Origin: an uncultured Asticcacaulis sp.
GTDB lineage: Bacteria; Pseudomonadota; Alphaproteobacteria; Caulobacterales; Caulobacteraceae
Assembly (NCBI GenBank): GCA_936940865.1
Contig: CAKZJB010000005.1
Span: 1-64,000, forward strand
Reading direction: 5' to 3'
Length of the DNA stretch: 64,000 bases
Shown here: positions 7,568-52,921 of the stretch, in pieces
Position numbering within the stretch: the first letter of the stretch is position 1
Layout: every line of letters starts with the position of its first letter
Made by a program: the position numbers and the translations under genes
Notes under the pieces: model-generated
The model's database searches: none
What the model was told of the DNA's origin: nothing
Seen by the model: only the letters and a program-made list of their open reading frames with translations

Positions 7568-7753
7568 ATGAACGTCAATTTCCCACCCGTCGACGAGGCT
7601 TATATCAAAGCCAAGGTTGCGGACGGTTTTTATAGCAATGCGACCGAATTGGTGAGGGATGCGGTTCGTCGGCTGCGCGAGTTGGACGGTTGGGACTATA
7701 CCCGGCGGATTATTGAGTGCGACGCCGGTGAGCTGGAGGGGAAGGATCGATGA
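7568..7753 (+). CDS. ParD-like ribbon-helix-helix antitoxin
   Basis: A 61-residue protein with the ParD/CopG-type fold: a short beta strand (MNVNFPPVDEAYIKAKVADG), then FYSNATELVRDAVRRLRE, which matches the ParD signature where the operator-bound dimer helix starts. ParD proteins bind and neutralise ParE gyrase poisons and repress their own operon. Here no ParE follows: the next gene, overlapping by four bases (ATGA), encodes a small membrane protein. It is either an orphan antitoxin or one half of a new pair. Confidence 0.78.
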   Translation: MNVNFPPVDEAYIKAKVADGFYSNATELVRDAVRRLRELDGWDYTRRIIECDAGELEGKDR

Positions 7754-29024: not shown

Positions 29025-29483
29025 TTACCGGCTTCGATCGTCATCCTCATCCCCGATCGTGCGCACAAGCGTCAAAATACGCTGACGGATTTTTGTGTTT
29101 TTAACCCGTGGAAAGGCCTCTGCCAGTTCAATACCTTCGTTCGTTGCCAGGAAGCCGTGCACCGTTTTTTCAGAGTCGGATTCTGAGAAGCCTTCCGGTC
29201 CGCCGCTTTCGTATCCATCAAAAAAGAAAGAAATGGGAGCCTTGAGGTACTTGGCGATCTCGTACAGCTTCGATGCACTGATGCGGTTAGAGCCGCGCTC
29301 ATATTTCTGCACCTGCTGGAATGTCAGGCCGATGCCGGCGGCAAGTTCCTGCTGGCTGATGCCGAGGAATTTGCGTCTTACGCGGACCTGGCCACCGACA
29401 TAGAGATCAACCGGGTTTGGGCCGTCGTTCGCCGCTGAACGGATTGGTTGGGGCATCGCTTGAGCTACTTTCTTGTCCTTCAT
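29025..29483 (-). CDS. XRE-family regulator, typical alphaproteobacterial form
   Basis: A 152-residue regulator with a helix-turn-helix over about residues 26-80 (GGQVRVRRKFLGISQQELAA, then VQKYERGSNRISASKLYEI) and the following FFFDGYE motif. The same KLYEIxKxL...FFDGY block occurs in the gene at 57253. Its start overlaps the stop of the small membrane gene by one base, and the structured RNA lies at the head of that operon. It may control the membrane gene or its own transcript. Confidence 0.85.
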   Translation of the reverse strand: MKDKKVAQAMPQPIRSAANDGPNPVDLYVGGQVRVRRKFLGISQQELAAGIGLTFQQVQKYERGSNRISASKLYEIAKYLKAPISFFFDGYESGGPEGFSESDSEKTVHGFLATNEGIELAEAFPRVKNTKIRQRILTLVRTIGDEDDDRSR

Positions 29484-29773
29484 TACTTCCTCGCCAACTC
29501 TTTATTGGTGTTTCGTCTTATCCAATGGGCAACGCGATCCCAACGCCAGGCCTCAACGACGTTGTGGCGTCGCCATGCTTCAAGGCTGTTTGCCACGGCC
29601 TTGCGTTCTGCATTGTCAATCCCGTGAAGCCGGCACAGGTTTTCGGCTGCCTCCCGGATTTCGGATTGCGGTATTAGCCAAACCTGTATTTCGGTACGCC
29701 ATACTCGCCAGACCGCATAAAGTAAGGCGGCGAAAATCACGATGAAGGTTGGATAACACCACAAAGGAAGCAT
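29483..29773 (-). CDS. Small membrane-anchored protein
   Basis: A 96-residue protein with one N-terminal transmembrane helix (TFIVIFAALLYAVWRVW) and a charged cytoplasmic tail. ATG at 29773 is chosen because a ribosome site (GGGGGCGGA) precedes it; the same frame stays open far upstream but there it crosses the structured RNA and is not protein-like. It overlaps the XRE gene by one base. Function unknown. Confidence 0.6.
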   Translation of the reverse strand: MLPLWCYPTFIVIFAALLYAVWRVWRTEIQVWLIPQSEIREAAENLCRLHGIDNAERKAVANSLEAWRRHNVVEAWRWDRVAHWIRRNTNKELARK

Positions 29774-29821
29774 TATCCGCCCCCTGCCCTGTCGGCCATA
29801 GCCAGCATGTCGTGCCCCGGA

Positions 29822-30043
29822 AGGCCTTAGCGGTACGCCCCCGCTCTTGGCCTCCTGATCTTTGGTGATCGGGGTGTTAGTAAACCGTCGTAACACGGTC
29901 CCTGGAGCTTTTGGTTCGGGTGAACCTGTTGCATGGCCACAGGCACCCCGACCCAAAGTCAGGGAGGTTCGTGCCGGAATGGCCGGCATCAACCAGTTAC
30001 GAAGGAGCTTACTAAGGCCCCGAAGCCGCGCGTATCGGCTTCG
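29822..30043 (-). ncRNA. Structured RNA element, copy 2
   Basis: Minus-strand homologue of 2268-2490. In plus coordinates the helices are: P0 30021-30028/30036-30043; P1 30018-30022/29870-29874 continued by 30009-30015/29877-29883; P2 29996-30002/29888-29894; P3 29983-29988/29972-29977; P4 29953-29957/29910-29914; P5 29939-29944/29924-29929; 3' hairpin 29841-29845/29829-29833 closed by GGCC/GGCC. P0 uses the loop end of P1 and may compete with it. P0, P2 and P5 differ from copy 1 on both strands yet still pair. It ends about 50 bases before the start of the small membrane gene and begins about 400 bases after the Cas9-like stop. Confidence 0.75.
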
Positions 30044-30445
30044 CGACGACGATAGAATAAAATCAGCAGTAAAGTCAAAGGTCGTTAGGACACGGAAGGG
30101 CTGTGCCGCACGATGGCCGTTTCCCGATTGGCCAAACTCAATCCCATACCTGCCGACATGTTTCTCATTCCCGTCATGATCGGAAGCTGGTAAGACTCGC
30201 GTCAGGTCGAAGAGATCATGTTTCCGCCGTTGTTTCCCTACCGATCTTCCAATCGTAGGCAATGTTGATCGTCGATTTGAGAACAAGCCAGACGTCCTAG
30301 CGGAAAAGGCGGCTGGCTTCGAATGCGCTTGAACGCCCATTCGGATGGCTCCATGACAATCGACGTGAACCAGTTCAAGGCGGCTGGACGGTTTGAGGGG
30401 CGATACCATTTGGGACATCGGAAAGTCTCGGATTTCCTTGATGGG
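30044..30445. other. Non-coding gap downstream of the Cas9-like gene
   Basis: No CRISPR array, tracr-like anti-repeat or gene is apparent in these 402 bases. AAGGCGGCTGG occurs twice (30306-30316 and 30377-30387), too little for an array. The promoter of RNA copy 2 should lie here. Confidence 0.5.
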
Positions 30446-33085
30446 TCAGGACAGTTCGTTGTCGACGTAAACTACCTTGCCGCGCCAAGTGCGCTGTTCA
30501 CCGACAACAAGATACCTTTTTCCAAGACGATCGACCTGGTACTTACGCATGTCAGCTAGGTTTCGCGGTCCAATACTGCGGAAAGCGACATCCAAGGTCT
30601 GATGGGGCGAAATGCAGATGCCCCCGTTGGAGCGATCTACGCCGCGGAAATACCCGGCGATTGGCTGGTCACCCGGCTTTTTGACGACTTCAATCCAGCT
30701 CTTTGGCGCCAAGCTGAATTCGAAATTATAAGCGCTCCCCATAACCGGCCATTCAACTTCTGAAGTGGAGGCTTTAATGGCCTGGTTGGGAGGGTACGGC
30801 TCCGAAGCAATCTGATGCGGGTAAATCGGCACGAGAAAGAATTGCCTCGCCCCTCTTTGCGAGGCCTTCGAAAACACGTCGACGCGGGCCATTTCGCCAC
30901 GCTCGGCGGTGCCGCCACGCACGCTTACCCCGGGCTTAATTGAGGATGCGATCACTCTGATTTTGCCAATCCTATCGCCTGTCGGCCCCAGCGGTGGAGA
31001 CGACGCCGGCCGCCCAGCTGCTTGCCAGACGAGCAGTGCTTTGATTATGGCGTGGGATCTTTCAGGTCGTTCAAATCGTTCCTCAAGCGCGCGTCGCAAG
31101 CTGGAGCGGCCGGCTTTTGCGCTCACTTGATCGAGAAGCACGGCCGGCGAAACACGTTCAAAAACCGTCTGAGTTTGGTCGTCTAAGCGATGGACTGTTT
31201 CCTTGTGACCCTGGCCCCTTCCGCGACGGCTTTCCGCCCGGGCCACGACTATCTCGGCCACACGCTGCCTTACCTCGTCACGGAACGATGGCCACGGCAG
31301 AGCAATGCACAGGCGCTCTCCCCCACTTTGAAGTTTTGACAGGCGGTCCGTAGTTGGGATGCTCGGAGTTTTAGCCAATCCCGCCACTACGAGCGCGCCG
31401 CCCGCGTCATAACGATCATCCTCAATAGAGATGCGGGTCCCCACGGATAGCGGCGGCCCCAGTTGCCATGCCCGCCGCAACGCCGAAGCGAGGGTTCCCG
31501 GGTGGGCGAAGCATCGTCTCATCCCGTCGTTCACGGGGTAGAAAAAGCTCAGCAATTCAATAAACAGGCAAGCAGCCCATCGTTTATCAAAAAGGTTTCC
31601 GTCGCATATTGCCCTTTCCAGGACTTCCGCGTTCGGTAAAAGATAGTTTCGCTTTTTCCGGGCGGCCACGTGCTGGCATACGCCGACACGCGATCGAAAT
31701 CCATCGACGTCAGGGGCACCGAGTTCACCCCCGGACATCCATTCGAAAGGGGTTCGACCCGCCTTCAACGCCTTCGCCCGCGCCAGACACAATGTCAGAT
31801 TCAAAAAGCTGTCGTCGCAAAAGCGGTCCCAGGGCAAAATATGGTCGGTTTGAATAAAATCAGCGTCAAAAATGCAAGTGGGTTCAATAGCTTGGCCCGT
31901 ATATAGACATTGCCATCCCTGCTCCTCGGCCAACTCAAATCGCAAAAGCTCGTCCGTCTCGCCTTGCGGCTGGCGCGAAAAACGCGCGATGAAGGCCTCT
32001 TCAGATGCGCGCCGTTTCCGCTCCCGTCTTGATCGGCCCAGCCTGATCCCGGCACGTTCTTCAGCGCTCTTTCCCACATCGCGGGCCAACTCGACGTGTA
32101 TCTCGCCGGGTAAGGCCCCAGCCAAAGCCGGATGATCGTTAAGGAGAGCGACAAATTGTTTGACGCCCTCCAGCAGGCATTTTCGCGTGACGGCGGACCC
32201 AAGGAAATGATGCCTTGGGTTCGTAATGAATAGCGCGAGGTGACGGCGAAGGTTCGTTGCAGTCAGTCCGACAACCTCACCCCGCAGATGCGCCACCTGC
32301 ATAGCCGCAGCCATTCGGCGGCGGCCGTGTTGTTTTTCACCGGCGCGAAAGTCTTGGACGAATGGCTCGCGATCGCCGTCGGCGTCGTCGGACCCGCTGG
32401 AAAACGCCAAGTCCAAGAACTTGGCCTCAAATTCGACGCTCGCGTTTATCCCGCCCAAATCGCGTTGCCGATCGAACAACAGGCGGACTTCATGCTGTAC
32501 CCAATCCTGCCGTGGCGTGCGGCCGTAACTGTTTGGGCCGTTGCGCTTTCTTACGGAAAGAACGGGGTCTTTAAATAAGGCTTCGCCGTAAGTGCGATAG
32601 GACGCAATCTCACGACTGAGCTGATCTACAGCTTTGAGCACCTTGTGCTCGCCGACCACGACCGCTTTTCGGGTCGATTGAAGACCGCGATGCTTGGCCA
32701 AATGATAGAGCGCGACGGCAAATTCCACTGCCGTAAGTTGCCGATCAAGGCCGTCCGCCCGGGCCGTCCACGGACAAATCCGTTGCCGGCCTTTACCCGG
32801 AGCAATAGCAGACATGCCGGTTCCGGACACCAGGCCTTCTGCCCGAAACAGCGCCAGAATGTCGTTGAGACGTCCCCGCCGTCGTTTGACAATCCTTCGG
32901 TCGATACGGGCCTTGCGCCAAATTTCGCTTTTGGGCCGCTTGTCTCTGTCCGTTTCGGGCGCATTGAAAGCCCATACGCCTGCGTCCAAGACCTGTTCGG
33001 ACACCGTATCCAACAGGCCCCATCCAATCGAGGACACGCCCACACGGAGACCCAAAACTACATTTTCTCGGATGGGATAAGACAT
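30446..33085 (-). CDS. Cas9-like protein with degraded nuclease sites
   Basis: An 879-residue homologue of type II-C Cas9, shorter than the usual 1000-1100. In order: a RuvC-I strand (VVLGLRVGVSSIGW, residues 9-22), an arginine-rich bridge helix (about 57-75, DRRIVKRRRGRLN), a recognition lobe with LAKHRGLQSTRK, RuvC-II (IHVELARD, E332), an HNH domain (CLYTGQAI, then TDHILPWDRFCDDSF), RuvC-III (about 555-568) and a C-terminal WED/PAM-type region with GHKETV. The usual RuvC-I aspartate is R14. The RuvC-III HHxxD is replaced by YDAGG. HNH keeps D414 and H415 but the asparagine position appears to be L440. RuvC cleavage is therefore unlikely and HNH doubtful. No cas1, cas2 or array is in the window. 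RNA-guided binding without cutting is the best inference. Confidence 0.88.
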   Translation of the reverse strand: MSYPIRENVVLGLRVGVSSIGWGLLDTVSEQVLDAGVWAFNAPETDRDKRPKSEIWRKARIDRRIVKRRRGRLNDILALFRAEGLVSGTGMSAIAPGKGRQRICPWTARADGLDRQLTAVEFAVALYHLAKHRGLQSTRKAVVVGEHKVLKAVDQLSREIASYRTYGEALFKDPVLSVRKRNGPNSYGRTPRQDWVQHEVRLLFDRQRDLGGINASVEFEAKFLDLAFSSGSDDADGDREPFVQDFRAGEKQHGRRRMAAAMQVAHLRGEVVGLTATNLRRHLALFITNPRHHFLGSAVTRKCLLEGVKQFVALLNDHPALAGALPGEIHVELARDVGKSAEERAGIRLGRSRRERKRRASEEAFIARFSRQPQGETDELLRFELAEEQGWQCLYTGQAIEPTCIFDADFIQTDHILPWDRFCDDSFLNLTLCLARAKALKAGRTPFEWMSGGELGAPDVDGFRSRVGVCQHVAARKKRNYLLPNAEVLERAICDGNLFDKRWAACLFIELLSFFYPVNDGMRRCFAHPGTLASALRRAWQLGPPLSVGTRISIEDDRYDAGGALVVAGLAKTPSIPTTDRLSKLQSGGERLCIALPWPSFRDEVRQRVAEIVVARAESRRGRGQGHKETVHRLDDQTQTVFERVSPAVLLDQVSAKAGRSSLRRALEERFERPERSHAIIKALLVWQAAGRPASSPPLGPTGDRIGKIRVIASSIKPGVSVRGGTAERGEMARVDVFSKASQRGARQFFLVPIYPHQIASEPYPPNQAIKASTSEVEWPVMGSAYNFEFSLAPKSWIEVVKKPGDQPIAGYFRGVDRSNGGICISPHQTLDVAFRSIGPRNLADMRKYQVDRLGKRYLVVGEQRTWRGKVVYVDNELS

Positions 33086-33201
33086 GTTCTACACTGTTGC
33101 AGAGCAATGCCGTTGAACCGTCTCCATGCGTATGCTACCAAAATCACGGAAGATCGGTAGCGAACCCACGGTAAATGGTTCTGCCATGAAAGATAACCTC
33201 G

Positions 33202-33219
33202 CCCGATGTTTCGGGCGGG
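33202..33219. terminator. Short hairpin upstream of the Cas9-like gene
   Basis: CGCCCGA and TCGGGCG form a seven-base stem around a short loop in the gap between the fluoride operon end and the Cas9-like start. It may terminate the long minus-strand fluoride transcript before the Cas9-like gene. No strong T-run follows. Confidence 0.3.
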
Positions 33220-33328
33220 GGATTCTTCCCCATCCCAAAATTGTGTCCATCCTTGTTGGGGCTTCTCGGCTCACTATAGCGATCCGGGGCCGCATATCTT
33301 TTCGTGTCTTCACAGGCATCATCTCCGC

Positions 33329-34747: not shown

Positions 34748-35161
34748 CTAAGAAAAATGTCGTGTGAAGTCGTCCGTGCCGGCGAAGGTCGACATCCAGA
34801 AATACCGGGGCTCCTCGGGCTCGGGCAGTTCGGTAATCAGCCGCCACATCAGCACGAGCTTGGCATGCGGTGTTTCCGCGCCCAGGATCTGGCCGCACCA
34901 TTGGGTAATCGAGCCGCTCTTTTCCCAGAGGACCATGAAGGCGATCAGGTCGCCGACGACCGATCCCTTGACCTCGGCATTGCTCTCGCCGGCGTGGGCG
35001 AAGCCCTTGTTGGAGCCGTAGTACATACCTGTCAGGTCATGGCCATTGACCTGAAGCTCGAGGACGGCGCCGTGGTTGTTCGCCCAGCGGCCGGAAAAGT
35101 CGAAGGTCTTGTTCGGATTGACGGAGTGCTGGGCAATGCGAAGCGCTTTTTCATGGTGCAT
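34748..35161 (-). CDS. Avidin-like protein 1
   Basis: A 137-residue protein with an avidin-type barrel pattern: FSGRWANNHGAVLELQVNG (strands 1-2), GDLIAFMVLWEKSGSITQWC (strands 5-6), KLVLMWRLITE (strand 7) and GTDDFTRHF (strand 8). Trp at the ALW/VLW, TQW and LMW positions and the terminal Asp match biotin-contact sites, while some polar contacts differ. No signal peptide: it should be cytoplasmic. First numbered of three tandem paralogues, the most distal in the operon. Confidence 0.8.
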   Translation of the reverse strand: MHHEKALRIAQHSVNPNKTFDFSGRWANNHGAVLELQVNGHDLTGMYYGSNKGFAHAGESNAEVKGSVVGDLIAFMVLWEKSGSITQWCGQILGAETPHAKLVLMWRLITELPEPEEPRYFWMSTFAGTDDFTRHFS

Positions 35162-35171
35162 GGCAATCTCC

Positions 35172-35561
35172 TCAGGGCCGGGTGAATTCTTCCGAGCCGT
35201 GATAGTCGGCGACCCAGTAGGTGTCGTTCATCTCGGGCTCCGGCACCTCCGAGATAACGCGCCAGGCCAGTTGCAGCTTTTCCATGTGGTCGCCCATGAG
35301 TTCGCCGGTCCAACTGCTGAGCGCGCGCATGTCTTCGGAAAACGCCACAAGCGCGACCATGCCGCCCGTTGCAAAGCCGCGTAGGCTGGCCACAACCTGA
35401 TCGCCGTCATCGTCACGCGCAAACGTGCCGGTGACATCGTGGCCGTGCACGCTGAGGTCCAGGATGGAACCCTGTCGGTTGACCCACCGCCCCTTGATAC
35501 CTTCGACGTGAAGGACGGAGCTCATGCGGCGCGCACGCGTCAGCGCCTTTTCATGCAACAT
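35172..35561 (-). CDS. Avidin-like protein 2
   Basis: A 129-residue avidin-like paralogue from ATG 35561, preceded by AGGAGGG. Matching segments are IKGRWVNRQGSILDLSVHG, GMVALVAFSEDMRALSSWTG and LQLAWRVISE, ending HGSEEFTRP. The Trp before strand 6 found in the other two is replaced (VAFSED), so ligand binding may differ. It overlaps the preceding paralogue by 11 bases. Confidence 0.78.
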   Translation of the reverse strand: MLHEKALTRARRMSSVLHVEGIKGRWVNRQGSILDLSVHGHDVTGTFARDDDGDQVVASLRGFATGGMVALVAFSEDMRALSSWTGELMGDHMEKLQLAWRVISEVPEPEMNDTYWVADYHGSEEFTRP

Positions 35562-35991
35562 GATGGCCCTCCTCTCCAAACGCATCACCGCCTTCCGTTT
35601 GCCGAACAAAGTCCTCCGCACCGCCGAAGCTCGACATCCAGTAATATTTTGGCTCGACGGGCTCGGCCATTTCGGTGATCAGCCGCCACATCAGCTTAAG
35701 CATCGGCCGCCCTTCTTCTTCCGTATATTGCCCGCTCCAGGACGTGATCGAGCCGCCCATGCGCCAGAGGGCATTGATCGAGATCAGATCGCCGACGGCC
35801 ACGCCGGAGAGATCGGCAACGTGGTGGCGGGTCGTGCCTTCATAGGTGGTGAACATGCCGGTGATGAGGCTTCCGTTCATCCTGATGTCCAGGATGGCGC
35901 CGTGCTGGCCGTCCCATTTCCCGGTGAAATCCCTCGTTTCGGGCGGCCCGTCGGAGGCATGGGCGAGTTGGATGGCCTTTTCGTGCATCAT
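35551..35991 (-). CDS. Avidin-like protein 3
   Basis: A 146-residue avidin-like protein, closest of the three to streptavidin at SITSWSGQYTEEEG and LKLMWRLITEM, with FTGKWDGQHGAILDIRMNG at the start and GAEDFVRQ near the end. The first biotin-contact asparagine is not clearly kept. It begins 12 bases after the phosphoglycerate mutase stop, so it shares the fluoride operon. Confidence 0.82.
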   Translation of the reverse strand: MMHEKAIQLAHASDGPPETRDFTGKWDGQHGAILDIRMNGSLITGMFTTYEGTTRHHVADLSGVAVGDLISINALWRMGGSITSWSGQYTEEEGRPMLKLMWRLITEMAEPVEPKYYWMSSFGGAEDFVRQTEGGDAFGEEGHHVA

Positions 35992-40832: not shown

Positions 40833-40872
40833 ATAAAAATACTCCTGTAGCGCCGGTTGCGCGTACAGGAGT
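40833..40872 (-). terminator. Riboswitch 1 terminator
   Basis: Minus-sense stem ACTCCTGTA/TACAGGAGT with GCG/CGC inside, followed by TATTTTTA. The 5' strand of the stem overlaps the 3' end of the aptamer, so ligand binding should block termination. Confidence 0.8.
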
Positions 40873-40915
40873 CATCAGCCCGTGAGGGCGGTTAAAGGGA
40901 AACTCCATTCCCGGG
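40862..40915 (-). promoter_or_regulatory. Fluoride riboswitch 1
   Basis: Minus-sense sequence reads GGGAATGGAGTTTCCC, TTTAACCGCC, CTCACGG, GCTGATGACTCCTG. This matches the crcB-motif fluoride aptamer: the AUGG near the start, the AACCGCC core and the CUGAUGACUCCU end with GGAGU/ACUCC pairing. It overlaps an intrinsic terminator and controls cfa-crcB and downstream genes. Confidence 0.92.
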
Positions 40916-41163
40916 CTAGATGGTAGCACCGCGCGGACGCGACCGTCAACATCACAATTGCCCCTCTTCCCCTTTAAAAAATAAGGAGTTGGTAAAGACG
41001 AAACGGTAACCGCAAGGCGACGGGAGCTTGGACGGAACGCTTCGAGCAGGCCCAGGCTTACGGCCAAGCCGGCCCAAATTACTGGCGACATCATGAGATC
41101 TTCCATTTGCTGAACACGGGTATAGGGCCGCCTTTTGGCGACCCGCTCGGCGGGGCGCCCGGA

Positions 41164-42499: not shown

Positions 42500-42572
42500 A
42501 CTCCTGTAGCGCCGGTTGCGCGTACAGGAGTCATCAGCCCTGAGGGCGGTTAAAGGGAGAACTCCATTCCCT
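42500..42572 (-). promoter_or_regulatory. Fluoride riboswitch 2
   Basis: Minus-sense GGGAATGGAGTTCTCCC, AACCGCCCTCAGGGC, TGATGACTCCTG repeats the aptamer of copies 1 and 3 almost exactly. The downstream hairpin CTCCTGTA/TACAGGAG is kept, but the following T-run is TATCTATACC rather than TATTTTTATG, so termination may be weak. Confidence 0.92.
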
Positions 42573-42944
42573 ATGTTGCAGACGCTAGCATTTGCCCAAT
42601 TTAATCGTCAACCGCTCAAATCCACTTTTTGAGAAGAAACCGATAAGGATTTTTTTCATCTGGGGTCCACTTCGCACCTGCCCCTTCGATTCCAAAGGCG
42701 CTTGCGAAGTGAGGATCACTCACGACCGCGACATTCGGTCGCACGGCGTCAAAAGGGGCCCGACCTCCGGTGAGGTGAGATAGCTGGCCTGCACGCTTGA
42801 AAGAGATAGGAGCCGTGAAGGTCGTCCTTCGGAGCACAGCCACTGATACTGGCACGCTCCCGTCGAGACCTGTGCTATATGGGGCTGTCTCGCAATGTGC
42901 TTCCCAACAAGCATGCGATCGCCCCAGGCATGTGAATCAACCCT
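42573..42944. other. Divergent promoter gap between cfa2 and the HNH gene
   Basis: No gene is supported in this 372-base gap; it should hold the cfa2 promoter on the minus strand and the promoter of the HNH gene on the plus strand. Confidence 0.4.
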
Positions 42945-48161: not shown

Positions 48162-48243
48162 ATAAAAATACTCCTGTAGCGCCGTTTGCGCGTACAGGAG
48201 TCATCAGCCCTGAGGGCGGTTAAAGGGAGAACTCCATTCCCTG
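48162..48243 (-). promoter_or_regulatory. Fluoride riboswitch 3 with terminator
   Basis: Minus-sense aptamer GGGAATGGAGTTCTCCC, AACCGCCCTCAGGGC, TGATGACTCCTG, followed by the hairpin CTCCTGTA/TACAGGAG and TATTTTTATG, the same arrangement as riboswitch 1. It precedes cfa3. Confidence 0.92.
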
Positions 48244-48341
48244 TGACGCAACGCTACCACCATCCCGGAACAAGCGTCAACCCGCTTTTAGGCCCCTCCA
48301 TACCGGGAAAAATAAGGATTGGGTCAAAAGAGGTCGTGCCC

Positions 48342-52777: not shown

Positions 52778-52818
52778 ACTTGACTTTTATCCGAATTTTA
52801 TTTATTGCATGTGCTAAC

Positions 52819-52921
52819 AGGTAATGGATTTCTGCCTGGCCTGGTTTCGACCTGAGCCGAACCGCTCCAAGACGAGCTGATGATTCCTACTTCTTGCCAC
52901 GTTGCAAAAGGTAGAATCGTG
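52819..52921 (+). promoter_or_regulatory. Fluoride riboswitch 4, translational type
   Basis: Reads AGGTAATGGATTTCTGCC, then an extended stem-loop, GAACCGCTC, GAGCTGATGATTCCTAC: AUGG, AACCGC and CUGAUGA-UCCU elements of the fluoride aptamer in order. Downstream, GATTCCTAC (52880-52890 region) can pair with GGTAGAATC just before the GTG start at 52919, hiding the ribosome site. Ligand binding would keep the first segment in the aptamer and free the site. Less close to consensus than copies 1-3. Confidence 0.75.

Follow-up and report, generated by a model that had tools for sequence, protein, structure and literature searches.

A predicted nuclease-dead type II-C Cas9 with a tracrRNA gene and a solitary CRISPR repeat on a putative conjugative plasmid of an uncultured Asticcacaulis

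Analysis of a 64,000-nucleotide stretch of DNA from an uncultured Asticcacaulis sp. (positions 1 to 64,000 of contig CAKZJB010000005.1, GenBank assembly GCA_936940865.1; hereafter the window) revealed a gene for a type II-C Cas9 homolog that has lost catalytic residues in both nuclease domains and part of its REC lobe, and that is accompanied by a predicted trans-activating CRISPR RNA (tracrRNA) gene and a single repeat of the clustered regularly interspaced short palindromic repeats (CRISPR) type. The protein is almost certainly nuclease-dead. We tentatively favor the explanation that it is a natural nuclease-dead II-C Cas9 that would assemble with its own tracrRNA and a CRISPR RNA (crRNA) into a ribonucleoprotein and would bind DNA without cutting it. 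It is a little more speculative that this doubly dead and REC2-less Cas9, with its tracrRNA and a guide based on one repeat, might be kept by the plasmid that carries it as an RNA-guided, DNA-binding silencer or shield.

Family assignment and catalytic residues

The cas9 homolog is an open reading frame (ORF) at positions 30446-33085 on the minus strand, which encodes 879 amino acids without an internal stop. The protein scored 265.6 bits against the NCBIfam model TIGR01865 for Cas9 (cut-off 100) and 50.6 bits against Pfam HNH_4. An AlphaFold2 model was obtained (50 sequences; mean predicted local distance difference test score 80.8, predicted template modeling score 0.65). Among solved structures, the best matches of the protein were II-C enzymes such as Nme1Cas9, HpaCas9, GeoCas9 and ThermoCas9, the top structural one being Nme1Cas9 (6kc8_A; Z 33.1, 716 aligned residues, root mean square deviation 13.8). 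At the level of sequence and modeled structure, it was thus confirmed that the ORF is a real type II-C Cas9 homolog, as had been proposed in an original prediction made from the letters of the window. A search of the own genome with this protein matched this gene alone; two further short partial matches to HNH_4 were found on other contigs (25.1 and 24.7 bits).

Catalytic columns were compared with those of 80 relatives, 74 of which were in the alignment and 6, dropped by an ORF filter requiring length and the HNH motif, were read by tblastn. The RuvC-I Asp is replaced by Arg at codon 14 (33044-33046, minus strand); all 75 relatives that have a residue there carry Asp, and the other five have gaps. 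In RuvC-III, the HHxxD motif reads YDAGG at residues 559-563: H559 (His in 73 of the 74 aligned relatives) is Tyr, H560 (His in 79/80) is Asp and D563 (Asp in 80/80) is Gly, the last two within codons 560-563 (31397-31408, minus strand). Both of these RuvC replacements had been foreseen in the original prediction, as had the retention of E332 (Glu in 80/80 relatives), D414 (Asp in 77, Glu in 2, 1 uncovered) and H415 (His in 79, 1 uncovered). On the other hand, the HNH Asn had been misplaced at L440, which is a variable column; it aligns with K438 (codon 438, 31772-31774, minus strand), where Asn is found in all 80 relatives. Taken together, RuvC lacks three of its four catalytic residues (D14R, H560D and D563G in the D-E-H-D set) and HNH one of its three (N438K in the D-H-N set), within a frame whose 879 codons are free of stops, as had been claimed. 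No relative with the same substitutions was found among the 80 for R14, K438 and G563, of which the window protein is the sole carrier. In a separate alignment of 27 relatives, some of them distant and from another Cas9 branch, the N438, H560 and D563 columns were invariant (27/27), and the HNH Asp was Glu in five sequences and Asn in one (L022). That both RuvC and HNH have lost catalytic residues is seen directly, and inactivity is what this predicts. A compensated double frameshift in RuvC-III was also considered and was rejected by eye because the conserved letters remain in register.

The Asp-His pair of HNH and E332 of RuvC are what might be expected of a residual nickase, in which HNH would still cut by means of D414 and H415. 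However, the HNH Asn, whose equivalent is required in SpCas9, is Lys here, and HNH with its linkers has 18 window-specific changes against 4 in two catalytically intact Cas9s of the HYPHO1 metagenome-assembled genome. We regard such residual cutting as very improbable.

The original prediction had also listed REC among the parts retained in the II-C domain order. REC turned out not to be intact: a nine-way alignment revealed that about 165 amino acids are absent, cleanly and in frame, between residues 285 and 289 (junction at 32219-32233, minus strand), where the model has its low-confidence stretches (residues 232-274 and 278-295). With NmeCas9 as a guide to the domain borders, we take the missing segment to be most of REC2. 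A study of engineered SpCas9 describes a catalytically dead Cas9 (dCas9) without REC2 that repressed nearly as well as wild type at one target in bacteria and less well at another (PMC8476515).

The tracrRNA gene and the solitary repeat

A covariance model was built from eight tracrRNAs of seven relatives, with the window excluded. It matched positions 33146-33236 on the plus strand (58.4 bits, E 4.8e-17), which we assign to a tracrRNA gene divergent from cas9, with an anti-repeat at 33148-33172 followed by two hairpins. The relatives have the same arrangement: each of the 77 loci searched (three of the 80, whose Cas9 match starts at a sequence edge, were left out) had one match (E <=1e-9), located just 5' of cas9 and in the opposite orientation. 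Their scores ranged from 42.2 to 88.2 and the window ranked 61st of 78, some of the 77 scored loci having also served to build the model.

The second match of the covariance model in the window (17.1 bits) is a solitary CRISPR repeat at 30226-30261 on the plus strand, which has the crRNA orientation GCCGTTGTTTCCCTACCGATC... and is identical to the repeat of HYPHO1, the nearest relative, at 32 of 36 positions, 24 of the 25 letters of the pairing part being shared. The next best site for the HYPHO1 repeat in the window is the anti-repeat itself (33137-33172, 25/36). Throughout the own genome, the solitary repeat and the anti-repeat were the sole matches over 22 nucleotides with up to three mismatches, and a reversed control gave none. 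When repeat and tracrRNA were cofolded, the duplex, hairpin 1 and a nested hairpin 2 appeared as in HYPHO1, with different letters in the hairpins. It is probable that the window Cas9 still binds this tracrRNA.

No array of at least two repeats was found; one repeat of this type is present in the own genome. A second repeat was absent at +-66 and +-132 of the solitary one, local alignment for a degenerate copy in the flanks did not exceed shuffled controls (fractions 0.24 and 0.97), and no direct repeats were detected at 24-40 kb of the window, the region to which the search for arrays of other repeat types was confined. The original prediction was right in reporting no array and had overlooked the repeat and the tracrRNA gene. 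Its claim that cas1 is missing agrees with a Cas1 (PF01867) search that gave no match in the 245 contigs of the own genome and was positive in 9 of 14 control genomes.

Several other features were noted around the locus. GCTACC (33134), a 5' extension that immediately precedes the anti-repeat, pairs with the GGTAGC (33156) that the latter contains (33134-33161, plus strand); this pairing was not seen in the HYPHO1 fold and could give a self-paired form of the tracrRNA. A long-form tracrRNA that would act as a single guide in autoregulation was considered as one candidate role for such an extension. The solitary repeat is overlapped by a 311-amino-acid ORF (29483-30418, minus strand) that has no convincing Pfam match and a flat guanine-cytosine content by codon position (0.59, 0.52 and 0.54); its first part is perhaps not a gene. 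No Rfam family reached its gathering score over the cas9 locus. Downstream of cas9, at 29860-29952 on the minus strand, a match to Rfam sRNA-Xcc1 was below threshold (28.4 bits, gathering 53, E 0.075).

Distribution of changes among domains

Departures of the window protein were counted at those positions whose residue is shared by >=95% of 67 references, with L133 dropped as an outlier and HYPHO1 kept apart; both this and a first version of the test excluded sequences of <=950 amino acids and the six loci dropped by the ORF filter. The window departed at 3/10 such positions in RuvC-I, 3/10 in the bridge helix, 10/34 in REC, 2/10 in RuvC-II, 9/40 in HNH with linkers, 11/25 in RuvC-III and 3/36 in WED/PI, and the two HYPHO1 copies together at 2/20, 4/20, 10/68, 2/20, 5/80, 4/50 and 11/72, respectively. 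At this threshold, WED/PI was the slowest part in the window and the fastest in other Cas9s (WED/PI versus all other parts, post hoc Fisher p 0.009 at the 95% threshold, 0.004 at 90% and 0.014 at 80%). In the first version (70 references, HYPHO1 and L133 included), 0/31 positions were changed in WED/PI and 11/25 in RuvC-III.

Lineage-specific changes gave a similar picture. The ratio of changes in the window to those in the intact HYPHO1 pair was 6:0 in RuvC-I, 18:4 in HNH with linkers and 17:6 in RuvC-III, as compared with 2:3 in WED, 3:2 in PI, 4:5 in the bridge helix, 21:16 in REC and 3:4 in RuvC-II. The nuclease domains (41:10) differed from bridge helix, REC, WED and PI taken together (30:26; Fisher p 0.004, or 0.018 with RuvC-II counted as nuclease). 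WED/PI identity between the window and HYPHO1 (L061) was 0.54, against a median of 0.41 between L061 and other Cas9s, whereas for RuvC-III the corresponding values were 0.30 and 0.48. Changes are concentrated in the nuclease domains rather than in WED/PI, which argues against uniform decay. Together with the neutral simulation described below, these comparisons speak for a protein kept for something other than cutting, with its nuclease domains relaxed. The selection for binding claimed in the original prediction is supported indirectly in this way, as well as by the tracrRNA score and the layout of the cofold; the repression of plasmid or host genes that it gave as an example goes beyond what these data show.

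Alternatively, the locus might be an early relic that has lost its array, cas1 and cas2 and whose nuclease domains and REC2 have decayed, with its remainder so far unbroken. Such a history would fit the lack of a detected cas1 or array, a weakened repeat:anti-repeat duplex (see below), alterations of REC and the bridge helix at conserved sites (for example, R56W and R77L), and a Cas9 match in only 1 of 25 genomes of the genus, the own one. It fits less well with an 879-codon frame that is open despite many changes, with the concentration of these changes in certain domains, with the clean and in-frame loss of REC2, and with a tracrRNA fold whose letters are altered yet still paired. Neutral simulation of 0.1 substitutions per site produced a mean of 6.2 stops and no stop-free copy in 200, and 4.5% of copies were stop-free at 0.05 substitutions per site. 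The decay after array loss that the original prediction had offered as its alternative appears less likely in view of the open frame, the domain-concentrated changes and the kept tracrRNA fold, and we consider an early relic rather unlikely.

DNA silencing and capture of host crRNAs

If the window Cas9 forms a ribonucleoprotein as we tentatively suggest, the simplest source of its crRNA would be the one repeat that is left, together with the 30 nucleotides immediately 5' of it (30196-30225, plus strand), which have the position, and on that ground the putative role, of a spacer; both guide and target are suppositions. DNA would be bound and left uncut, and the complex would become a roadblock to transcription or replication, the working principle being that of Cas12m, type IV-A and TldR systems. 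Expression of the window Cas9, its binding of RNA and DNA and the resulting silencing are each inferred.

A number of observations weigh against such silencing. The own genome contains no other match to the 30-nucleotide guide-like stretch (25 nucleotides with <=3 mismatches; 17 nucleotides with <=2), and no target was found for it by window k-mers. The repeat is also altered at the end that would not pair, in 3 of the final 11 letters. The duplex of solitary repeat and anti-repeat has a predicted energy of -34.5 kcal/mol, compared with -44.8 to -49.0 for the own pairs of five intact loci (HYPHO1 -44.8; G582, G180, G1060 and G750 -47.1 to -49.0), and a stronger duplex (-40.6) is predicted between the window anti-repeat and the HYPHO1 array repeat. 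The retained part of REC is eroded too, as judged from its 10 changed positions, and REC2-less SpCas9 was reported to be hampered in DNA unwinding, its in vitro binding of duplex DNA being weak unless the seed was opened (PMC8476515). As regards selection, the tests rest on one gene only; WED and PI alone (5:5) did not differ significantly from the nuclease domains (p 0.10); the p-values are post hoc because the borders between domains were drawn by hand on the basis of motifs; and no ratio of nonsynonymous to synonymous substitution rates could be obtained because no close relative was found in the collections searched. In addition, 29% of frames stayed open at 0.02 substitutions per site in the neutral simulation, so a recent loss could look like the window gene.

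Further matches of the guide-like stretch were examined. Its best match among plasmids (E 0.1) was in Tistrella DNA, where the similarity is to the repeat part. One exact 21-nucleotide match was found in IMG/VR (L141, 8078-8098, plus strand), within an ORF that by eye is tape-measure-like; it ends 5 nucleotides short of the repeat, with the seed-side letters mismatched. As a guide target this match was taken to be a probable chance match because the mismatch falls where the seed would be.

It may also be that the protein is a crRNA-sequestering decoy, that is, an anti-CRISPR: dead Cas9 and tracrRNA would capture the II-C crRNAs of a recipient and hold them idle, or use them to shield plasmid protospacers, and the active Cas9 of the host would then be unable to cut. 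The solitary repeat would be a relic or a Racr-like lure. There is a phage precedent, a II-C Cas9 with dead RuvC, a putative tracrRNA nearby and no array, for which crRNA sequestration has been proposed (PMC10910872, PMC11656645). The stronger pairing with the HYPHO1 array repeat and the combination of kept WED and PI with eroded REC point in the same direction, and a conjugative plasmid could be expected to meet new hosts. However, neither Cas1 nor a further repeat of this type was found in the own genome, and a related Cas9 is present in just 3 of the 389 other genomes of the family searched. Moreover, the anti-repeat is imperfect against every repeat compared, unlike in the phage case; its predicted duplexes with the repeats of G1060, G750, G180, G582 and L036 (-31.5 to -33.5 kcal/mol) are no stronger than the one it forms with the solitary repeat. 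The kept PI domain would not seem to be required for mere sequestration.

Silencing by an own guide would account for the retention of the repeat and the PI domain, whereas capture of host crRNAs would account for the erosion of REC and for the stronger duplex formed with the HYPHO1 array repeat, and has the precedent from phage. The two are nearly equal in our assessment, with own-guide silencing slightly ahead; taken by itself, the decoy reading appears less likely than not to hold, though somewhat more plausible than an early relic.

Relatives and plasmid context

Genomes with a match to the window Cas9, the own one included, numbered 1/25 in the genus (E to 1e-10), 4/390 in the family (1e-15), 18/398 in the order (1e-15) and 10/385 in the class (1e-30). 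No close relative of the window protein was found by peptide pattern in genome contigs or viral contigs, and a profile search of viral contigs gave one relative (L142), in which all seven catalytic residues are intact. PLSDB held no near copy of the 24-37 kb region of the window in a search whose coverage possibly leaves out records of the own genome. In the intact loci examined the array is situated beyond the 3' end of cas9, and we read the two ORFs between them as putative cas1 and cas2.

Some relatives were unusual themselves. A second odd Cas9 is encoded by L055 (7164-10604, plus strand; contig C17 of G421), with Asp to Glu in RuvC-I, DH to NY in HNH and an intact RuvC-III; no cas1 was identified among nine ORFs scanned at this locus (cas9 included), nor a direct-repeat array in 19 kb, and of the 27 other genomes in the same genus, 3 have a 39-43% relative of this Cas9. 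The Cas9-encoding frame of L133 has 1,587 amino acids and a high rate of departure from the family (0.196). In L138, the Cas9 match breaks in HNH (7662-7665, plus strand; query 590-613 uncovered, with a change of frame), and this cas9 is perhaps broken or mis-assembled.

The contig that carries the window is 65,456 bp long and encodes an RPA replication protein, ParA/ParB-KorB, a VirC1-like protein, a relaxase, a coupling protein and VirB/Trb proteins. This gene content supports the original view that the carrier is a conjugative plasmid. Four fluoride riboswitches were identified (40859-40921, 42518-42580 and 48188-48250 on the minus strand and 52811-52896 on the plus strand; 43.8-56.1 bits, gathering 34), and the plasmid also encodes a CLC channel, an enolase and a histidine phosphatase family gene; with these, it looks like a fluoride-resistance carrier. 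An AbiD-like abortive infection protein is encoded at 1306-2187 on the plus strand (Abi_2 133.3 bits; PADLOC AbiD 164.1 bits). An avidin-family protein (34748-35161) is adjoined by two ORFs that look alike by eye, all within 34748-35991 on the minus strand.

Comparison with known systems

The closest comparison is with the II-C Cas9s of HYPHO1 (two loci, L061 and L062) and other Alphaproteobacteria, which have the same fold, domain order and divergent position of the tracrRNA. Identity to the window Cas9 is 44-47%. Those Cas9s are 1,078-1,079 amino acids long, their catalytic residues are intact and an array lies near the gene, whereas the window has 879 amino acids, changed sites, one repeat and no Cas1 found.

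One report describes a phage II-C Cas9 in which RuvC is inactivated and HNH is active, with an SNF2 helicase, a putative tracrRNA nearby and no array, and puts forward a crRNA-sequestration hypothesis (PMC10910872); the 2025 classification lists a phage variant II-C2 with inactive RuvC and active HNH (PMC12669027). The window shares with it the inactivated RuvC, the tracrRNA nearby, the lack of an array and the mobile element. It differs in its HNH, which is predicted to be inactive with Lys in place of the Asn, in the missing REC2, in the conjugative plasmid as carrier and in the one repeat, and no SNF2 helicase was found among the 40 ORFs, part of those in the window, that were scanned with Pfam besides cas9; this separation is by description and not by sequence comparison. 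The presence of just one CRISPR repeat on a mobile element also recalls solitary repeat units and Racr, although such units are described without association with cas genes and the window repeat lies 184 bp from cas9 (PMC10651486).

With regard to function, Cas12m (subtype V-M) and type IV-A systems on plasmids are candidate analogs, in which targeted DNA is bound without cleavage (PMC11013384, PMC11656645); they belong to other protein families and have CRISPR arrays. TldR proteins, which are nuclease-dead TnpB repressors, have kept guide and DNA binding and have the guide RNA beside the gene (PMC13418256), and are candidate analogs too; they differ in their TnpB family and known target, whereas no target was found for the window Cas9. 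Silencing of DNA by nuclease-dead derivatives of Cas12 and TnpB has thus already been described in these sources. Among the papers listed in literature searches whose scope excluded preprints and most subscription papers, none reported a plasmid-encoded Cas9 in which both nucleases are dead; for Cas9, the only precedent found there is the phage form with dead RuvC and live HNH. The window Cas9 appears to differ from that published form in being plasmid-borne and REC2-less, with both nucleases apparently lost. It offers a testable case of the use of a dead Cas9 by a plasmid, either for silencing or against host CRISPR. If our tentative explanation is true, nature built a compact dCas9, with both nucleases and REC2 lost and the tracrRNA and WED/PI end kept, and such a silencer or shield would have arisen independently of engineered dCas9 and of phage II-C2.

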